DNA from: Microbacteriaceae bacterium PS02066
Lineage (GTDB): Bacteria; Actinomycetota; Actinomycetes; Actinomycetales; Microbacteriaceae
Assembly: GCA_029959545.1 (NCBI GenBank)
Contig: JASCPH010000006.1
Span: 1-64,000, forward strand
Direction: 5' to 3'
DNA: 64,000 nt
In this document: positions 23,948-29,080 of the stretch, in pieces
How positions within the stretch are numbered: the stretch's first letter is position 1
Layout of the letters: each line of letters starts with the position of its first letter
The notes under the pieces: generated by a model
The model's input: the letters and a program-made list of their open reading frames with translations, nothing else
The model's database searches: none
What the model was told of the DNA's origin: nothing
Made by a program: the position numbers and the translations under genes

Positions 23948-24301
23948 GTGCCTCTGGACCCCGAAGAATCCCTCGCGCAGATCGAGCGCGACGTCCGGCA
24001 GAGCGCTGACCGCGCCGCCAAGATGCCCGCATTCGAAGCCACCGTCTCCGCGATTCGCGGCGCCGCCTGGTCGTCCGCACGCGACGTCTACGTCCAGGTC
24101 GACTCCACCGGACGCGTGCAGACCCTCCGCCTCGGCGAGACGGCGCTCGCCCGGGGCGCACAACGACTCGCCTCCGACATCCTCGCCACGATCGTCTCCG
24201 CGGAGAAGAACGCTCACGCGGCGACGATCGACGCCGTCTCCGAGCTCCTCGGCGAAGGCGACCCCATCACGGAACAGCTTCGCTCCACCGACACCCCCTG
24301 A
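23948..24301 (+). CDS. YbaB/EbfC-like small protein heading a secretion-substrate module
   Basis: This 117-aa protein is largely helical with a central strand pair (VYVQVDSTGRVQTLRL), the pattern of YbaB/EbfC DNA-binding proteins. In actinobacteria these often accompany type VII secretion genes. The GTG start at 23948 lies 6 nt after TAGCGT and is probably leaderless. It is followed within 20 bp by an ESX-like small protein and then by a PPE-like protein, so the three likely act together. The family match is from pattern only. Confidence 0.65.
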   Translation: MPLDPEESLAQIERDVRQSADRAAKMPAFEATVSAIRGAAWSSARDVYVQVDSTGRVQTLRLGETALARGAQRLASDILATIVSAEKNAHAATIDAVSELLGEGDPITEQLRSTDTP

Positions 24302-24321
24302 TACGTCCGAAAGAGCCTCGA

Positions 24322-24642
24322 ATGACCGAGAACATCGCCCTTGATTTCGATCGGCTCCGGCAGCATGCCGCGCTGGTCACCTCGCTTGCCGATGACGTCA
24401 CTGGCGCCATCTCGATGCTGAAGGCAGGCGATCTCGCCTCCAACGCCTTCGGCATCCTGTGCGCCTTCCTCGTTCCCCCCTCGATGGCGATGTCCGCGGC
24501 GGCGACCGGCCTCTTCAGTGCGGACCAGTCTCTGCTGCTTCGCACCGCGGGCGAGTTGCGCAGTACCGCCGCGCAATGGGAGCAGTTCGAGGACGACACG
24601 GTGACCACCCTTCGCGACCTCGAGAGCGCGCTGGGCCTGTGA
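24322..24642 (+). CDS. Type VII secretion-associated small helical protein (EspC/WXG100-like)
   Basis: This 106-aa protein lacks a signal peptide and is predicted as two long helices around a hydrophobic turn (NAFGILCAFLVPP), with a WEQF near the C-terminus. The size and layout fit ESX-type secreted helical-hairpin proteins (the EspC/DUF2580 or WXG100 groups). It overlaps the next gene by one base (TGATG), the usual pairing of such a partner with a larger substrate. No ESX ATPase lies in the window. Confidence 0.62.
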   Translation: MTENIALDFDRLRQHAALVTSLADDVTGAISMLKAGDLASNAFGILCAFLVPPSMAMSAAATGLFSADQSLLLRTAGELRSTAAQWEQFEDDTVTTLRDLESALGL

Positions 24643-25940
24643 TGACCACTCCCGCCGCCCTCGCCGCATCCGGCTCCTCCTTCGCTTCGCCCTACTCCGG
24701 CAGCAAACTCCTCGACTCCGGCCACGCGCTCTCCCAGGCCGTGCGCAACGGCGATTGGCTCGAGGGCGGACTCGCCTTCCTCGACACGCTGGGCAACGCC
24801 GCGGCCGCGCTCGCGGATCCGATCGGGACGCTCGCGAGCATCGGGCTCGGCTGGGTGATGAAGTACCTCAAGCCGCTGAGCACCTGGCTCGACCAACTGG
24901 CCGGCAGTGAGGCCAACGTGGCCGCCGTCGCGCAGCAGTGGACCAACGCCGGCAGCGCACTGCGCGACACGGGCAACACCCTCGTGACGCGCCTGTCCGA
25001 TCTCGACGGCCTCAGCGGTGACACGGTGCGCACCTACGTGCGCTTCGCGCAGGACACCGCAAAGCACATCGCCGCGACCGGTGACTGGGCCGATGCCGCG
25101 GCCGGCGGTCTGCGCAGCGCCTCGTCACTCGTCGCCAAGATGCAGGGTGTCGTGAAGAACGCCATCTCGCAGGTGGTCGCTACAGCGATCGAAGCCATGG
25201 CGGTCGTCGCCGCATCCTTCGGCCTCGGCATCGGCTACGCGATCGCCCGTGTCGTGACCAAGGTCAACCAGCTGGTGAACAAGGTCGTGCGTCCCCTCAC
25301 GCAGGTCGTGCGCTCGGTGAAGTCCCTCGTGGGCTTCGTGCAGCAGCTCGGCTCGCTGTTCAAGAGCACCGAGCGCCTCAGCTCGACCCTGCTGGGCGGC
25401 GGCGCGAAGTCCGCCACCGTCAACGCGGGCGTCGTCGTGGACGCGTCGGGAGCCACGAGGCTCGGCAACACCGCGCAGGCGAATCTGATCAGCGCCGGGC
25501 AGAAGGCCGACGACTGGCACTTCACGCCGACCGCGGTGGTCTCCACGGGCATCGGAGCGGAAGGAACGCTCACCGCCGACGGATCGACGATCGGCGCCGC
25601 GGGCGTCGGGAGTGTGCACGGGTCGGCGGACAGCGGCGGCATCGGGGCGGGCGGGGCATACGCCTCCGGCGCCACGGCCTCCACCTCCGGTACCGGAACG
25701 AGTACCCCGTCGTCGATCATGGGCACGGGTGCCGCAGCATCCGCGGCCACGGCGGCGAGCGTCGGCAGCTCTCACGCCGCGGCCGCGGGTTCCCGCATGA
25801 TGACACCGGGCGGCATGATGGGCGGCGCCAGCCGCGACGGCGGGCAGCGCAGCGGTCTCGGCATCCGTCAGGTGGTCCGCGAGATCGTCATCGAGGCGGA
25901 TGCGGGCGAGAAAGAACTCGCCACCGCAGAGCGCGACTGA
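24642..25940 (+). CDS. Large PPE/LXG-like putative type VII secretion substrate
   Basis: This 432-aa protein has a helical N-terminal half (about 1-240) with WLDQLAGSEANVAAVAQQW and a long amphipathic/hydrophobic helix near 185-205. The C-terminal half is low-complexity, rich in Gly, Ala, Ser and Thr, then a charged end. This resembles PPE- or WXG-domain proteins rather than an enzyme. The ATG is shared with the previous stop. It has no recognisable toxin domain. A terminator hairpin follows ten bases after the stop. Confidence 0.6.
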   Translation: MTTPAALAASGSSFASPYSGSKLLDSGHALSQAVRNGDWLEGGLAFLDTLGNAAAALADPIGTLASIGLGWVMKYLKPLSTWLDQLAGSEANVAAVAQQWTNAGSALRDTGNTLVTRLSDLDGLSGDTVRTYVRFAQDTAKHIAATGDWADAAAGGLRSASSLVAKMQGVVKNAISQVVATAIEAMAVVAASFGLGIGYAIARVVTKVNQLVNKVVRPLTQVVRSVKSLVGFVQQLGSLFKSTERLSSTLLGGGAKSATVNAGVVVDASGATRLGNTAQANLISAGQKADDWHFTPTAVVSTGIGAEGTLTADGSTIGAAGVGSVHGSADSGGIGAGGAYASGATASTSGTGTSTPSSIMGTGAAASAATAASVGSSHAAAAGSRMMTPGGMMGGASRDGGQRSGLGIRQVVREIVIEADAGEKELATAERD

Positions 25941-25950
25941 GTCGTACCTC

Positions 25951-25984
25951 GAACGCCCCTCTGCCTGTCGGTGCGGGGGCGTTC
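25951..25984 (+). terminator. Terminator after the secretion-substrate module
   Basis: A 9-bp GC-rich stem pairs 25951-25959 with 25976-25984 around a 16-nt loop, directly after the stop of the large substrate gene. Confidence 0.65.
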
Positions 25985-26172
25985 ACCGTTGCTTAAGTCC
26001 GCCCTCTCCGCGGCGTAGAGTCGGGCGCAGAGATCCCGTCGTCACATTGCGCGCCCGCGCTCCGATCGATGCGGGCTTGCGCCGAGTCCGATAGCTTCCT
26101 TTACCAGGGGGATCGGTTTCCGCAGCGTGGCCGAACTGACTCGACCACAGCGCTATGAACTCGGGGGTACAC

Positions 26173-26613
26173 ATGACGAGATCGACGAACGCAGACCGTG
26201 TGCGTTGCAAGAACATCATGGGAGCCCTCGGAGCTATCTGTTTCGGCATGGTTGCCGGCTGGGGGATCGCCTTCTGCTGGCCGAGCGCGGCCCTCGTCGC
26301 TGTCTCCGCAACTGGGGCGGTGCTGCTGCTCGTCGGTGCAGTCGTGTTCATGCTGATCACGGGCGGGCAAGGAACGTCGTACTCGCGCGCCGACTACTGG
26401 GCCCGCCTGATCACCCTCGCAGGGGCGTTCACCGTCGGCCTCGGAGCCCTTGCCGCTCTCGACCAGAAGGTGCTGAGCATCCTCGCGATGTTCGGCGCCA
26501 TCGCACTGGTCGTCGTGGTCTCTTGGGCCATCCGAAAGCTCGGGAAGCACCTCGAGAAGAAGCTCGATGGGAACGATGAGAGGAAGACTCCGGCGCAGAC
26601 CGCCGGGGAATGA
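26173..26613 (+). CDS. Small polytopic membrane protein, unknown function
   Basis: This 146-aa protein has four predicted membrane helices (about 15-35, 37-60, 75-97, 98-118) and a charged C-terminal tail. ATG 26173 is preferred over 26155 because GGGGG sits 6 bases upstream of it. I do not recognise a family. It is the last native-looking gene before the tRNA-Ala island boundary at 26702. Confidence 0.62.
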   Translation: MTRSTNADRVRCKNIMGALGAICFGMVAGWGIAFCWPSAALVAVSATGAVLLLVGAVVFMLITGGQGTSYSRADYWARLITLAGAFTVGLGALAALDQKVLSILAMFGAIALVVVVSWAIRKLGKHLEKKLDGNDERKTPAQTAGE

Positions 26614-26701
26614 GCGGCTCAGCACGCTGGCTCTCGTGCTCAGCCGGCATCGATAGCGCCCGCTCAGCGAAACGCTGGATGATCGGATGATTCGAAATTG
26701 C

Positions 26702-26745
26702 GGAGCCTAGGCGATTCGAACTCTTGACATCCTGATTGCGAAGCA
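26702..26745. repeat. Displaced copy of the tRNA-Ala 3' half (attachment-site repeat)
   Basis: These 44 bases match 29009-29052, the 3' half of the tRNA-Ala gene, at 40 positions and in the same orientation. The mismatches are scattered, and the copy cannot fold into a tRNA. This is what remains at the far end of an element integrated into the tRNA 3' end. It marks the left boundary of the island. Confidence 0.85.
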
Positions 26746-26810
26746 CGAGGCGTAGGCCCGGAGTTCCGCGTAACGGCGGGGTTCCGGGCCTCTCTCGCGG
26801 GGTCGAGTTA

Positions 26811-26848
26811 GGGCACGTGGTGGGCCTTAGGGGCACGGGGAGGGCACG
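26811..26848. repeat. Three GGGCACG repeats inside the island end
   Basis: GGGCACG occurs at 26811-26817, 26831-26837 and 26842-26848, about 65-100 bases inside the left attachment copy. Short clustered repeats like these next to an att core resemble arm-type integrase binding sites. That reading is inference. Confidence 0.4.
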
Positions 26849-26908
26849 AAGGAGAGACCTCACGAGCAGACTGCCGTGGGGGGATGCCTCGGGACCAGAG
26901 GTCCCGTT

Positions 26909-27742
26909 TCAGAACCGATGAACCCAGGGGTTGAGGCGCTCGTCGAGTTGTTCGAGGGTGAGGACCTCGACTTGCTCTCGCTCCCACGCTTCGAGCACCG
27001 CTTCGTAGAGGTCGCGGCCCTCTCCATGCGAATCGGCCGGAGCATCTACGACCGCGGTCACCACGGCATCGGTCGGTACGGGTGTGCTCACACCCCCGTG
27101 GACGAAAGTCGCACCATCGTCCCGAAGCCTCGTAATCCCGTAGTTCCAGGCATTGATGTCTCGTTGGAGAGATTCAATCCCGACCATGTCGAATGCCCAC
27201 GCGCTCCGCAGGATTGGCGTCGCTTCGTTCGTCTGGATGAAGTCGAACTCACCGGACATATGCCCAAGTCGGATAGACGGCGATGCGAAGAAGTCCAGGC
27301 CCTCGCGCAGGTCGCTCGTCTGGTAGACGCCGCGTATTGCCGTGCGCACTGAGCGACGCGTCATGCGATGGCGGCGGGCGGGACGGTCGTGGTGGACAAG
27401 GAGCGGGTAGAGAATCTCTGCGGCGGCGCGGGCGTTCACGGCAGCGGTCGGCTGGGGTGCCGAGAGTTGGATGGCGTTCGCCTGCCGTTGGCGAATGCCC
27501 TCGACCCAGGCGCGAGTGAACTCGTGGTCGGTGGCGAGCCGGTCGTGTGAGTTGACCTCCCGCGCTAGCCAGTGCGCCCACTCACGCACGTCACGAGGGA
27601 TGGAGCGCCGTTCGAGGTATCCCCAGTCGAGCCCAACAACCCAATCCCCGTCATCAGAACCGCAGATGATGCCGATGTTCTGGAACTCTCCACGGGCGAC
27701 ATCGGGCACGTACCGGATCAACCAGTAGGTGATTGCCGTCAT
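26909..27742 (-). CDS. DUF3037-domain protein partnered with HipA-like kinase
   Basis: This 277-aa protein begins YWLIRYVPDVARGEFQNIGI, the DUF3037 signature (about 5-110). The N-terminal part continues with a charged helical segment, and a C-terminal 150 residues extend beyond the usual short DUF3037 protein. It starts 9 bp after the HipA-like gene on the same strand. The pair co-occurs in many bacteria, but no biochemical function is established to my knowledge. Base composition is that of the island. Confidence 0.78.
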   Translation of the reverse strand: MTAITYWLIRYVPDVARGEFQNIGIICGSDDGDWVVGLDWGYLERRSIPRDVREWAHWLAREVNSHDRLATDHEFTRAWVEGIRQRQANAIQLSAPQPTAAVNARAAAEILYPLLVHHDRPARRHRMTRRSVRTAIRGVYQTSDLREGLDFFASPSIRLGHMSGEFDFIQTNEATPILRSAWAFDMVGIESLQRDINAWNYGITRLRDDGATFVHGGVSTPVPTDAVVTAVVDAPADSHGEGRDLYEAVLEAWEREQVEVLTLEQLDERLNPWVHRF

Positions 27743-27751
27743 GTCATTGCC

Positions 27752-28498
27752 TCATGGGTGGATGGTCGATCGGGCGGCTTGCTGGAGTCGCTCAACCACG
27801 CCTGGTACCCGCGCGAAGATGAGGTCGCCGACCGAAGTCAACTCGTTTGCGGTCGTGGACCACTGTAGCGGGACGCTGTGACAGACCTCCTGGATGCCAT
27901 CGGAGGTCAGCGCACTGATCGAGGTCGCGGCACTCAGGAGAGCCTCGCGTGAGGCGGTGTCGAGTCCGTCATGAGCCCATGGGCTAGATCCGATCCGTCG
28001 GAGCGCCTCTACGTCCAGGTCTGCTTCCCCACCCAACCAGAATCCGTGATCGAAGGACCAGATCGCCGCGTCCTCATCGAAGTGACTGAGCCACTGCGGG
28101 TCCGTCCCAAGACACAGGTCCCAAAGGGCCGAGATGAACGCGGCGCGACCGCGATTGCCGTCGCGTGATGCTTTCCCCCGCCAATCGTCAACGAGCATCA
28201 CCGGCGTCAGGTTCAGCGAGCCGTGGGCGACGCCGGGCCGAAGGCTATAACCGGGTTGGTAGACGTAGGTCATGTCCGCTGGGATATCGACCAGGGCGAT
28301 GGGTCGCACGGGCGCGCCTATGAGATGGCCAATGCCCGTAACGATCCGTTCCGGGATGAGCGAGCGCGCACCTTGGGGGTTGTTGGCGGGCTTGACCCAG
28401 TACTGCTGTTCGTCGTCCGCGATCCCGAGGAAGGCGGCGGAGCCAGATTCTCCACGCCGCACCGGTGCGACGAGCGTCACCCGGGTAGCAAGCGTCAT
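27752..28498 (-). CDS. HipA-like kinase domain protein (HipA_2 type)
   Basis: This 248-aa protein has a reduced HipA-type kinase fold. YWVKPANN contains the candidate ATP-binding lysine near residue 34, a catalytic-loop region follows, and IWSFDHGFWLGG is a DHG-type metal motif. Full HipA has an additional N-terminal domain and a HipB partner; both are absent here, and the partner is the DUF3037 protein instead. ATG 28498 is chosen because TATGGT (28510-28505, minus strand) ends 6 nt before it, giving a leaderless start; an upstream TTG at 28504 is open. It may phosphorylate a translation or replication target, which is inference. Confidence 0.78.
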   Translation of the reverse strand: MTLATRVTLVAPVRRGESGSAAFLGIADDEQQYWVKPANNPQGARSLIPERIVTGIGHLIGAPVRPIALVDIPADMTYVYQPGYSLRPGVAHGSLNLTPVMLVDDWRGKASRDGNRGRAAFISALWDLCLGTDPQWLSHFDEDAAIWSFDHGFWLGGEADLDVEALRRIGSSPWAHDGLDTASREALLSAATSISALTSDGIQEVCHSVPLQWSTTANELTSVGDLIFARVPGVVERLQQAARSTIHP

Positions 28499-28612
28499 AG
28501 GCAAACCATATCGGGGCGGTCTGGTCGGTCACAGCAATCGGCGAGTGCGACTCTCTTAGGTGTTTAACCTCAGGCCGGATCCGGTTCCGCCCTTCATGTG
28601 CGTGGTGGTGCG

Positions 28613-28888
28613 TCAGGCGTCCCCGGGCACCCGGTCTAGGCAATCCATGAGCGACTCGATGAGGTTCCCGGACGGGCGCGGCACCGCCACGGCTTCACCA
28701 TCATCCAGGAGCCCGAGCGCGGCGGCATTGGTCTGGTGGAGGAGCACGCGGCCCACGAACGGGATGGCCCCGGTTGTGGCGACGCCCTCCAGGATGGAGC
28801 GCCACGCCCGCGCCGGGATCGTGGCCTCTTCGGCGGCGACGATGGCCTGCGCCACGGAGTCCACCTGTGTGAGCCGATCCCAGATCAT
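28613..28888 (-). CDS. Uncertain 91-aa island protein
   Basis: A frame of 91 codons starts at ATG 28888 with no clear ribosome site. The product is helical and acidic with one mildly hydrophobic stretch. The longer frame to 29065 crosses the tRNA terminator and tRNA-Ala, so only the part left of about 28940 could be a gene. No family is recognised. It might be the remnant of a larger island gene. Confidence 0.35.
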   Translation of the reverse strand: MIWDRLTQVDSVAQAIVAAEEATIPARAWRSILEGVATTGAIPFVGRVLLHQTNAAALGLLDDGEAVAVPRPSGNLIESLMDCLDRVPGDA

Positions 28889-28946
28889 CTCGCGGATCGA
28901 CTCGATGCGGGCATCCGGGTTTGGAGCCTCCAGACCTTCGCGCGTA

Positions 28947-28995
28947 ACAAAAAGATCCCCCGATCGGGTAGCCGGAAACCCGGTCTGATCAGGGG
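28947..28995 (-). terminator. Rho-independent terminator of the tRNA-Ile/tRNA-Ala unit
   Basis: On the minus strand a compound stem (28995-28978 with 28969-28957, including a CCCCTGATC arm) is followed by CTTTTTG. It lies 13 bases past the 3' end of tRNA-Ala and closes the tRNA transcript. Confidence 0.85.
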
Positions 28996-29007
28996 AGTTA
29001 TCGACTG

Positions 29008-29080
29008 TGGAGCCTAGGAGATTCGAACTCCTGACATCCTGCTTGCAAAGCAGGCGCTCTACCAACTGAGCTAAGGCCCC
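29008..29080 (-). tRNA. tRNA-Ala (anticodon TGC)
   Basis: The minus strand gives a 73-nt cloverleaf. It has the acceptor GGGGCCT, the D-arm AGCTCAGTTGGTAGAGC, the anticodon loop TTTGCAA with TGC, and the T-arm AGGAGTTCGAATCTCCT. CCA is not encoded. Its 3' half is duplicated at 26702-26745. With tRNA-Ile it follows the DUF3566 gene, the same order as in mycobacteria (gyrA, DUF3566, ileT, alaT). Confidence 0.97.

Follow-up and report, generated by a model that had tools for sequence, protein, structure and literature searches.

Small elements that are integrated in tRNA genes and that carry integrase, helix-turn-helix (HTH) or other regulatory, replication and terminase-small-subunit genes display the layout of phage-inducible chromosomal islands (PICIs). 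Satellite families of this and other kinds have been surveyed (PMC11389934), and cis-mobilizable elements (CIMEs) are set out in the part of PMC5704250 available to us. Here we describe an island in the tRNA-Ala(TGC) gene of Microbacteriaceae bacterium PS02066, located in a 64,000-nt stretch of DNA (contig JASCPH010000006.1, positions 1-64,000; hereafter the window). The island is very probably what internal deletion has left of a PICI-like phage satellite whose tyrosine integrase had placed it in the 3' part of the tRNA gene; it holds a HipA-like kinase/DUF3037 pair as cargo and is now probably fixed.

Judged against the available part of PMC5704250, the island mostly meets the definition of a CIME and is in that respect of a known kind. 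Similar to a CIME it retains both attachment sites, attL and attR (42/47 identical), though these have drifted, while the genes for integration and transfer have been lost, only the tail of the integrase being left. It differs in that its parent resembles a phage satellite and not an integrative and conjugative or integrative and mobilizable element, and in that one of its site arrays is also lost, which makes cis-mobilisation doubtful. The parent family appears to share with PICIs a small size, a tyrosine integrase at the end that adjoins a tRNA gene, HTH and replication-like genes, a homologue of the terminase small subunit (TerS) and defence-type cargo. In contrast with PICIs, however, it is actinobacterial, is described here from its genes and encodes a protein of ~230 aa (orf230) that found no match in the phage collection, and the window copy lacks any complete core gene. 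Satellites of Streptomyces, the Mulch and Flayer systems, likewise occur in Actinobacteria and are likened to the family by their description in the available part of PMC10690885, not by sequence. Derivatives of the MITE (miniature inverted-repeat transposable element) and CALIN (cluster of attC sites lacking integrase) types, as far as PMC11389934 covers them in the part consulted, also arise by gene deletion from a fuller element, but the window island was placed in a tRNA by site-specific recombination and gives no sign of movement in trans. A limited literature search, mostly of titles and the beginnings of abstracts, retrieved no description of a Microbacterium satellite-like family, to which the present data point.

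The island is bounded by copies of the tRNA-Ala 3' part

The original prediction, made from the window sequence alone, was that positions 26702-26745 repeat the 3' half of tRNA-Ala (29009-29052) in equal orientation with four mismatches, and the comparison confirms this: 40/44 positions are identical, the anticodon arm and the T arm holding two mismatches each (as placed by eye), and the repeat can be extended to 47 nt (Table 1). A chance repeat is excluded because the next best match to the 44-mer in the 64-kb window, on both strands, is only 24/44. ARAGORN called tRNA-Ala(TGC) at the right copy and no tRNA at the left, in agreement with the statement that the left copy is not a tRNA. The island thus lies beyond the 3' end of the tRNA. 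Insertion downstream of a tRNA 3' end is the classical attachment geometry.

Table 1. Coordinates of the island features within the window.
Feature	Position	Strand	Basis
attR, displaced tRNA-Ala 3' part	26699-26745	unstranded	42/47 identical to tRNA copy
Hairpin GGCCCGGA...TCCGGGCC just inside attR	26755-26790	unstranded	Same place in the G191 element (alignment with L076)
Array GGCACG-N14-GGCACG-N5-GGCACG, putative integrase arm sites	26812-26848	plus	14/17 loci
277-aa DUF3037 protein, putatively the antitoxin or partner of the kinase	26909-27742	minus	Pfam PF11236, PADLOC PDC-M66B
HipA_2 kinase-like protein, 250 aa	27752-28504	minus	Pfam PF20613, phrog_3162 (E 7e-13)
C-terminal ~105 codons of orf230, N-terminal half missing	28613-28942	minus	Homology to G092 and L093 orf230
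Scar of integrase 3' end, last 13 codons and stop	28947-28988	plus	Alignments with L076 and L093
attL, 3' part of tRNA-Ala	29006-29052	unstranded	ARAGORN and repeat comparison
tRNA-Ala(TGC), integration target	29007-29080	minus	ARAGORN

Comparison was made with the genus Microbacterium, in sets of 198 and of 366 genomes. Among the 198, the closest relatives of the window, G035 and G136, contain the same locus from which the island is absent; their left flanks are ~90% identical to the window, although in the last 275 bp of the G035 flank identity drops to 85%, and their right flanks are 95-96% identical. Just inside attR, 125 bp of the island resemble the corresponding end of four of the seven copies tested (G191, G184, G065 and G261; z 10.3-13.7), whereas z against G043 is 0.6.

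It could be argued that the left repeat is merely a decayed duplicate of the tRNA-Ala gene and that nothing was ever inserted. A second, near-complete tRNA-Ala copy (74 nt, 94.6% identity) does lie near the tRNA of G043 (locus L094, tRNA-Ala). The window repeat, however, stops in the anticodon arm, like those of four intact elements, and beyond it come the same hairpin and site array. As the ends of the island match those of intact elements, tRNA duplication was rejected and merits almost no credence. As a separate observation, the G043 tRNA-Ala copy and a further 47-nt repeat enclose segments (L094:13912-17865) unmatched by the satellite family.

Intact relatives resemble phage satellites

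With up to three mismatches allowed, the 44-mer is present in 182 of the 198 genomes and in more than one copy in five. Four of these multi-copy genomes, G065, G184, G191 and G196 (loci L091, L092, L076 and L093, respectively), harbour integrase-bearing elements that measure 6.4-10.5 kb from repeat to repeat and have repeats of 49-53 nt; the fifth is G043, whose repeats enclose other contents. Read from the tRNA, the four elements begin with a tyrosine integrase gene whose 3' end adjoins it; a small HTH gene and a replication-like gene follow, then in three of the four a 130-aa open reading frame (ORF), and after these an HTH protein of 168 or 149 aa, orf230, variable cargo and attR. A search for the inner signature of attR in the 366 genomes matched seven; in G308 the matched letters belong to the tRNA, which leaves the four genomes above together with G212 (L155) and G261 (L143). 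It should be emphasized that the pattern misses the drifted attR of the window and would likewise miss other drifted copies. The recognised copies at tRNA-Ala are thus five with an integrase (that of G212 being 87% identical to the L091 protein) and two deleted ones, in the window and G261. Family relatives also occupy tRNA-Gly genes, as in G122 (L112) and G078 (L165), and a relative of orf230 occurs in 36/366 genomes. The original prediction of an integrated element is upheld by the tRNA-derived repeats, by the island-free locus of G035 and G136 and by integrase elements with similar ends in the same tRNA; it was, however, not the clean signature proposed, as the island is an internally deleted remnant.

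PHROGs and family searches were carried out with the proteins of L091, L092, L093 and L109 rather than of every copy. The parent integrase resembles the integrases of 252 phage records, nearly all from mycobacteriophages and all below 60% identity; in viral contigs five pattern matches to the integrase were obtained, none of which was confirmed. The small HTH gene belongs to HTH_17 in L091, and the 268-aa protein of L093 matches replication-initiation families (best E 8e-10). Among phages, the 168-aa L092 protein has matches in 11 records (ten Microbacterium and one Thermobifida, one phage occurring twice), all at less than 60% identity, the best being Phonegingi (E 5e-24, 50.8%); the phage genes are annotated as terminase small subunit in 7/11, hypothetical in 3/11 and Rnase E in 1/11. 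The integrase, HTH, replication-like and TerS-homologue assignments are spread over tests of L091, L093 and L092, and the window copy itself does not have this complete set. The cargo differs between elements: G184 has a cytosine methylase and a restriction endonuclease of the Eco29kI type, G065 a RelA/SpoT-domain protein and a HIRAN protein, and G191 a type II restriction enzyme-like protein (E 1.4e-12) beside one that appears by eye to be methylase-like.

Two further loci are of interest in their own right. The G196 element contains a 717-aa tail tape measure-like gene (L093:6794-8947, plus strand). At L165, in tRNA-Gly, a near-complete integrase match is accompanied by a match to the N-terminal part only of orf230, the three-site array described below is missing, and no second tRNA repeat was found within the 19.5 kb searched.

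Remnants of the integrase and orf230 mark a probable internal deletion

Three frames, all on the minus strand, lie between the repeats: one without a name that ends at 28613, HipA_2 and DUF3037. The description of the island as a HipA-like kinase and a DUF3037 gene without an integrase was right with respect to both genes and to the missing integrase gene, as tblastn of the window with three family integrases (E 1e-3) returned no match, but it overlooked remnants of two core genes. One of these is the last 13 codons of an integrase, separated from the repeat core by 21 bp, the distance also seen in L091; in G191 and G196 the integrase 3' end and the spacer align with 28946-29008. Over the 75 bp beside the tRNA, z is 10.3-18.1 against five loci, namely four integrase elements and the G261 derivative, whereas the remaining 23 of the 28 tRNA-adjacent comparisons (27 loci) do not exceed 4.8. 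The second remnant is the C-terminal part of orf230. Positions 28625-28942 match residues 119-224 of the 225-residue orf230 homologue of G092 (E 3.2e-26), and the remnant is 48.6% identical over 105 aa to orf230 of L093 (E 1e-29, in a small set), matching the G065/G184/G191 group weakly (E 0.1-1.5). Its frame is open up to 29065, with the first ATG inside the homologous stretch at 28886-28888, and identities to L093 at the three codon positions are 0.68/0.70/0.47, a pattern in which selection before and after the deletion is not separable. The orf230 and integrase remnants abut within ~4 bp (28942/28946), and the window contains no match to the terminase-like proteins of the family.

These features suggest the following history. 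A satellite with a tyrosine integrase would have inserted into the 3' part of tRNA-Ala(TGC), and a deletion of ~4 kb, a size estimated from intact elements, would then have occurred in one or more steps that spared the cargo slot. Arithmetic on the L091 and L093 coordinates puts the loss at about 3.9-4.5 kb. Lost with it would be the excisionase-like, replication-like and terminase-small-subunit genes, the greater part of the integrase gene and the first half of orf230, and the HipA-like kinase/DUF3037 pair would have been left in the tRNA as stranded cargo. The locus would thus exemplify an anti-phage pair stranded in a tRNA gene once its carrier has been gutted, and the proposed history accounts for a defence island that lacks an integrase and that cannot be assigned by annotation.

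Site arrays at the two ends

The three GGCACG sites of the window start at 26812, 26832 and 26843, a 20/11-bp spacing that is identical in L091, L092, L093, L076 and L143. Arrays were counted in 17 of 37 loci compared, those of the tRNA-Ala/tRNA-Gly integrase group with the window included; 14 of these 17 have the three-site array, L148, L155 and L165 being the exceptions. All exact matches in the collected loci (3.56 Mb, both strands) fall in element loci, many of which are overlapping copies. The array was found in 1/75 Microbacteriaceae genomes, which is the window's own, and in none of the remaining 74, which represent other genera of the family. The pattern is not perfectly specific, because three viral contigs also carry it, one of them with a 31% identical integrase and none with terminase-like or orf230 proteins by tblastn.

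At the other end, a GGCACG-N5-GGCACG pair is present in 15/17 loci, the G261 and G122 derivatives among them, at 90-93 bp from the tRNA in 14 loci and at 136 bp in L155; its position in the tRNA-Ala group is within the 3' coding end of the integrase. The two of the 17 loci that lack the pair are the window and L110, which does bear an integrase. The position and repetition of the GGCACG sites suggest that they are integrase arm sites. The end signature as a whole (three-site array, tRNA-side pair, hairpin, integrase tail and orf230 tail) makes remnants of this kind recognisable.

The HipA_2-DUF3037 cargo

The kinase gene directly precedes the DUF3037 gene, with a 9-bp gap. HipA_2 matches PF20613 over residues 19-99 (E 4.2e-8), DUF3037 matches PF11236 over residues 6-27 only (E 6.2e-6), and PADLOC PDC-M66B covers residues 1-31 only of the latter (E 5.7e-6). 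Residues K38, D135 and D152-H153-G154, which are invariant between the window kinase and five aligned homologues of 36-41% identity, are putatively catalytic; L098 was left out of the alignment, having the same tblastn match percentages as L097. HipA_2 homologues (38-41% identity) occur in six other genomes of the 198, adjoining DUF3037 in 6/6 loci, and the two genes are adjacent in 8/8 loci of named genomes, three of them Kribbella (a sample that overlaps with the genus set). According to the available part of PMC12548924, such a system lost its defence when the kinase was deleted, and removal of DUF3037 was toxic; that of PMC13092281 reports loss of defence on kinase mutation in a system named HipAD. 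The window pair shares with HipAD/DS-6/PDC-M66, as these two sources present them, the kinase gene adjoining a DUF3037 gene; it differs in being divergent, with partial Pfam and PADLOC matches, and the DUF1829 that DS-6B carries was not found in it with Pfam. By homology with these systems, the pair is most likely a toxin-antitoxin-type anti-phage defence.

A two-step history, in which the satellite inserted and decayed and the HipA_2-DUF3037 pair arrived later by another route, has to be considered here. The neighbours of the HipA_2 homologues in the six other genomes include, by eye, type I restriction-like genes, a different integrase or relaxase-like genes, and none of these genomes has an orf230 relative; for this reason no intact satellite with HipA_2-DUF3037 cargo was found. 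The pair nevertheless sits in the cargo slot between orf230 and the array, where intact elements carry other cargo such as Eco29kI-type restriction or RelA/SpoT and HIRAN genes, and no additional repeat pair flanking it was found. We thus regard later arrival as improbable, and prefer the view that the pair was cargo of the satellite.

Several observations weigh against the satellite-remnant interpretation as a whole. G212 carries an integrase-bearing element at the same tRNA that lacks the three-site array, and z against it is -1.1 for the 75 bp beside the tRNA and -0.2 for the inner end at attR; at the latter end z against G196 is also only 2.3. G035 and G136 lack, in addition to the island, the flank 25984-26698. 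For this reason the empty-site join is not readable to the base, and although the expected absence from relatives was found, the proposed junction of 26701 to 29053 is not demonstrable. With respect to the parent, the phage matches span only 57-76% of the 168-aa terminase-like protein of L092, the PHROGs name for the family is 'Rnase E' (E 2.3e-25), and the sole PHROGs terminase match is weak (E 0.006) and in the 149-aa relative. At E 0.0011 the excisionase match of the small HTH gene is weak as well, PHROGs gave no match for the 304-aa replication-like protein of L091, in contrast to its 268-aa counterpart in L093, and no helper phage is known for the parent satellite. Finally, the Pfam models of HipA_2 and DUF3037 were matched only in part, and PADLOC gave no match for the window kinase or for two relatives.

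Other deletion derivatives and present mobility

Two further derivatives were recognised. In G261, at tRNA-Ala, integrase residues 366-406 lie beside orf230 from residue 86, between repeats that are 44/44 identical and 3.96 kb apart. Compared with L091, the orf230-integrase part is continuous bar one gap of 3.73 kb, at whose join 3 bp are shared; L091 is, however, a relative and not the parent of this derivative, because part of the G261 cargo differs from that of L091 and resembles that of G212. In G122, at tRNA-Gly, integrase residues 340-422 lie ~10 bp from orf230 residues 93-212, the repeats are 40/40 identical and 2.66 kb apart, and a further ORF stands between the tRNA and the integrase remnant. 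Neither derivative has lost a site array, and the repeats of both are perfect. The deletions in the window, G261 and G122 appear to be independent events, since their endpoints differ in all three and the window orf230 belongs to another group than that of G261. Three different fusions of the same two genes would make movement of deleted satellites in trans testable. We also observe that the C-terminal frame of orf230 stays open in all three (window 28613-28942, L143:4824-5165 and L112:9259-9894).

It is conceivable that the window island, though non-autonomous, is still mobile, being excised and integrated by an integrase that an intact satellite in the same cell provides in trans. Neither of its core repeats is missing and the array next to attR remains, the repeats of the G261 and G122 derivatives are perfect and both arrays are present there, and the integrase-bearing L110 also lacks the tRNA-side pair, indicating that its loss need not be fatal. 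Against this, the window has lost the tRNA-side pair and has four core mismatches, and its genome contains no close relative of the family integrase: a search with the L093 integrase gave eight matches at E up to 1, the best at 27% identity (E 9.1e-10) and one with an internal stop. Because of these three features the window copy is predicted to be unable to excise, and continued mobility seems highly improbable. The satellite remnant in the window is, on these sequence features, probably now immobile, whereas those of G261 and G122 might excise given a supplied integrase.

A broader proposal, to which we attach rather low confidence, is that deleted, cargo-only satellites form a recurrent class in Microbacterium, generated by integrase-to-orf230 deletions, in which copies with both arrays (G261 and G122) are mobilised in trans by intact satellites and others, such as the window island, have become fixed defence islands. 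If this were true, minimal att-cargo-att elements would be the satellite counterpart of MITEs, and those of G261 and G122 would be satellites of satellites.

Neighbouring genes

Just outside attR, in the flank 25984-26698, lies a 152-aa ORF (26155-26613, plus strand) that is membrane-like by eye and for which a protein search at E 0.001 gave no match in the other 197 genus genomes. Further out, between a conserved genus gene and the island, are type VII secretion-like genes on the plus strand (23948-25940), comprising a YbaB-like gene (below the cut-off), an EspC-family gene and a gene for a 493-aa protein; they are matched in G035 and G136 and partly in G054.

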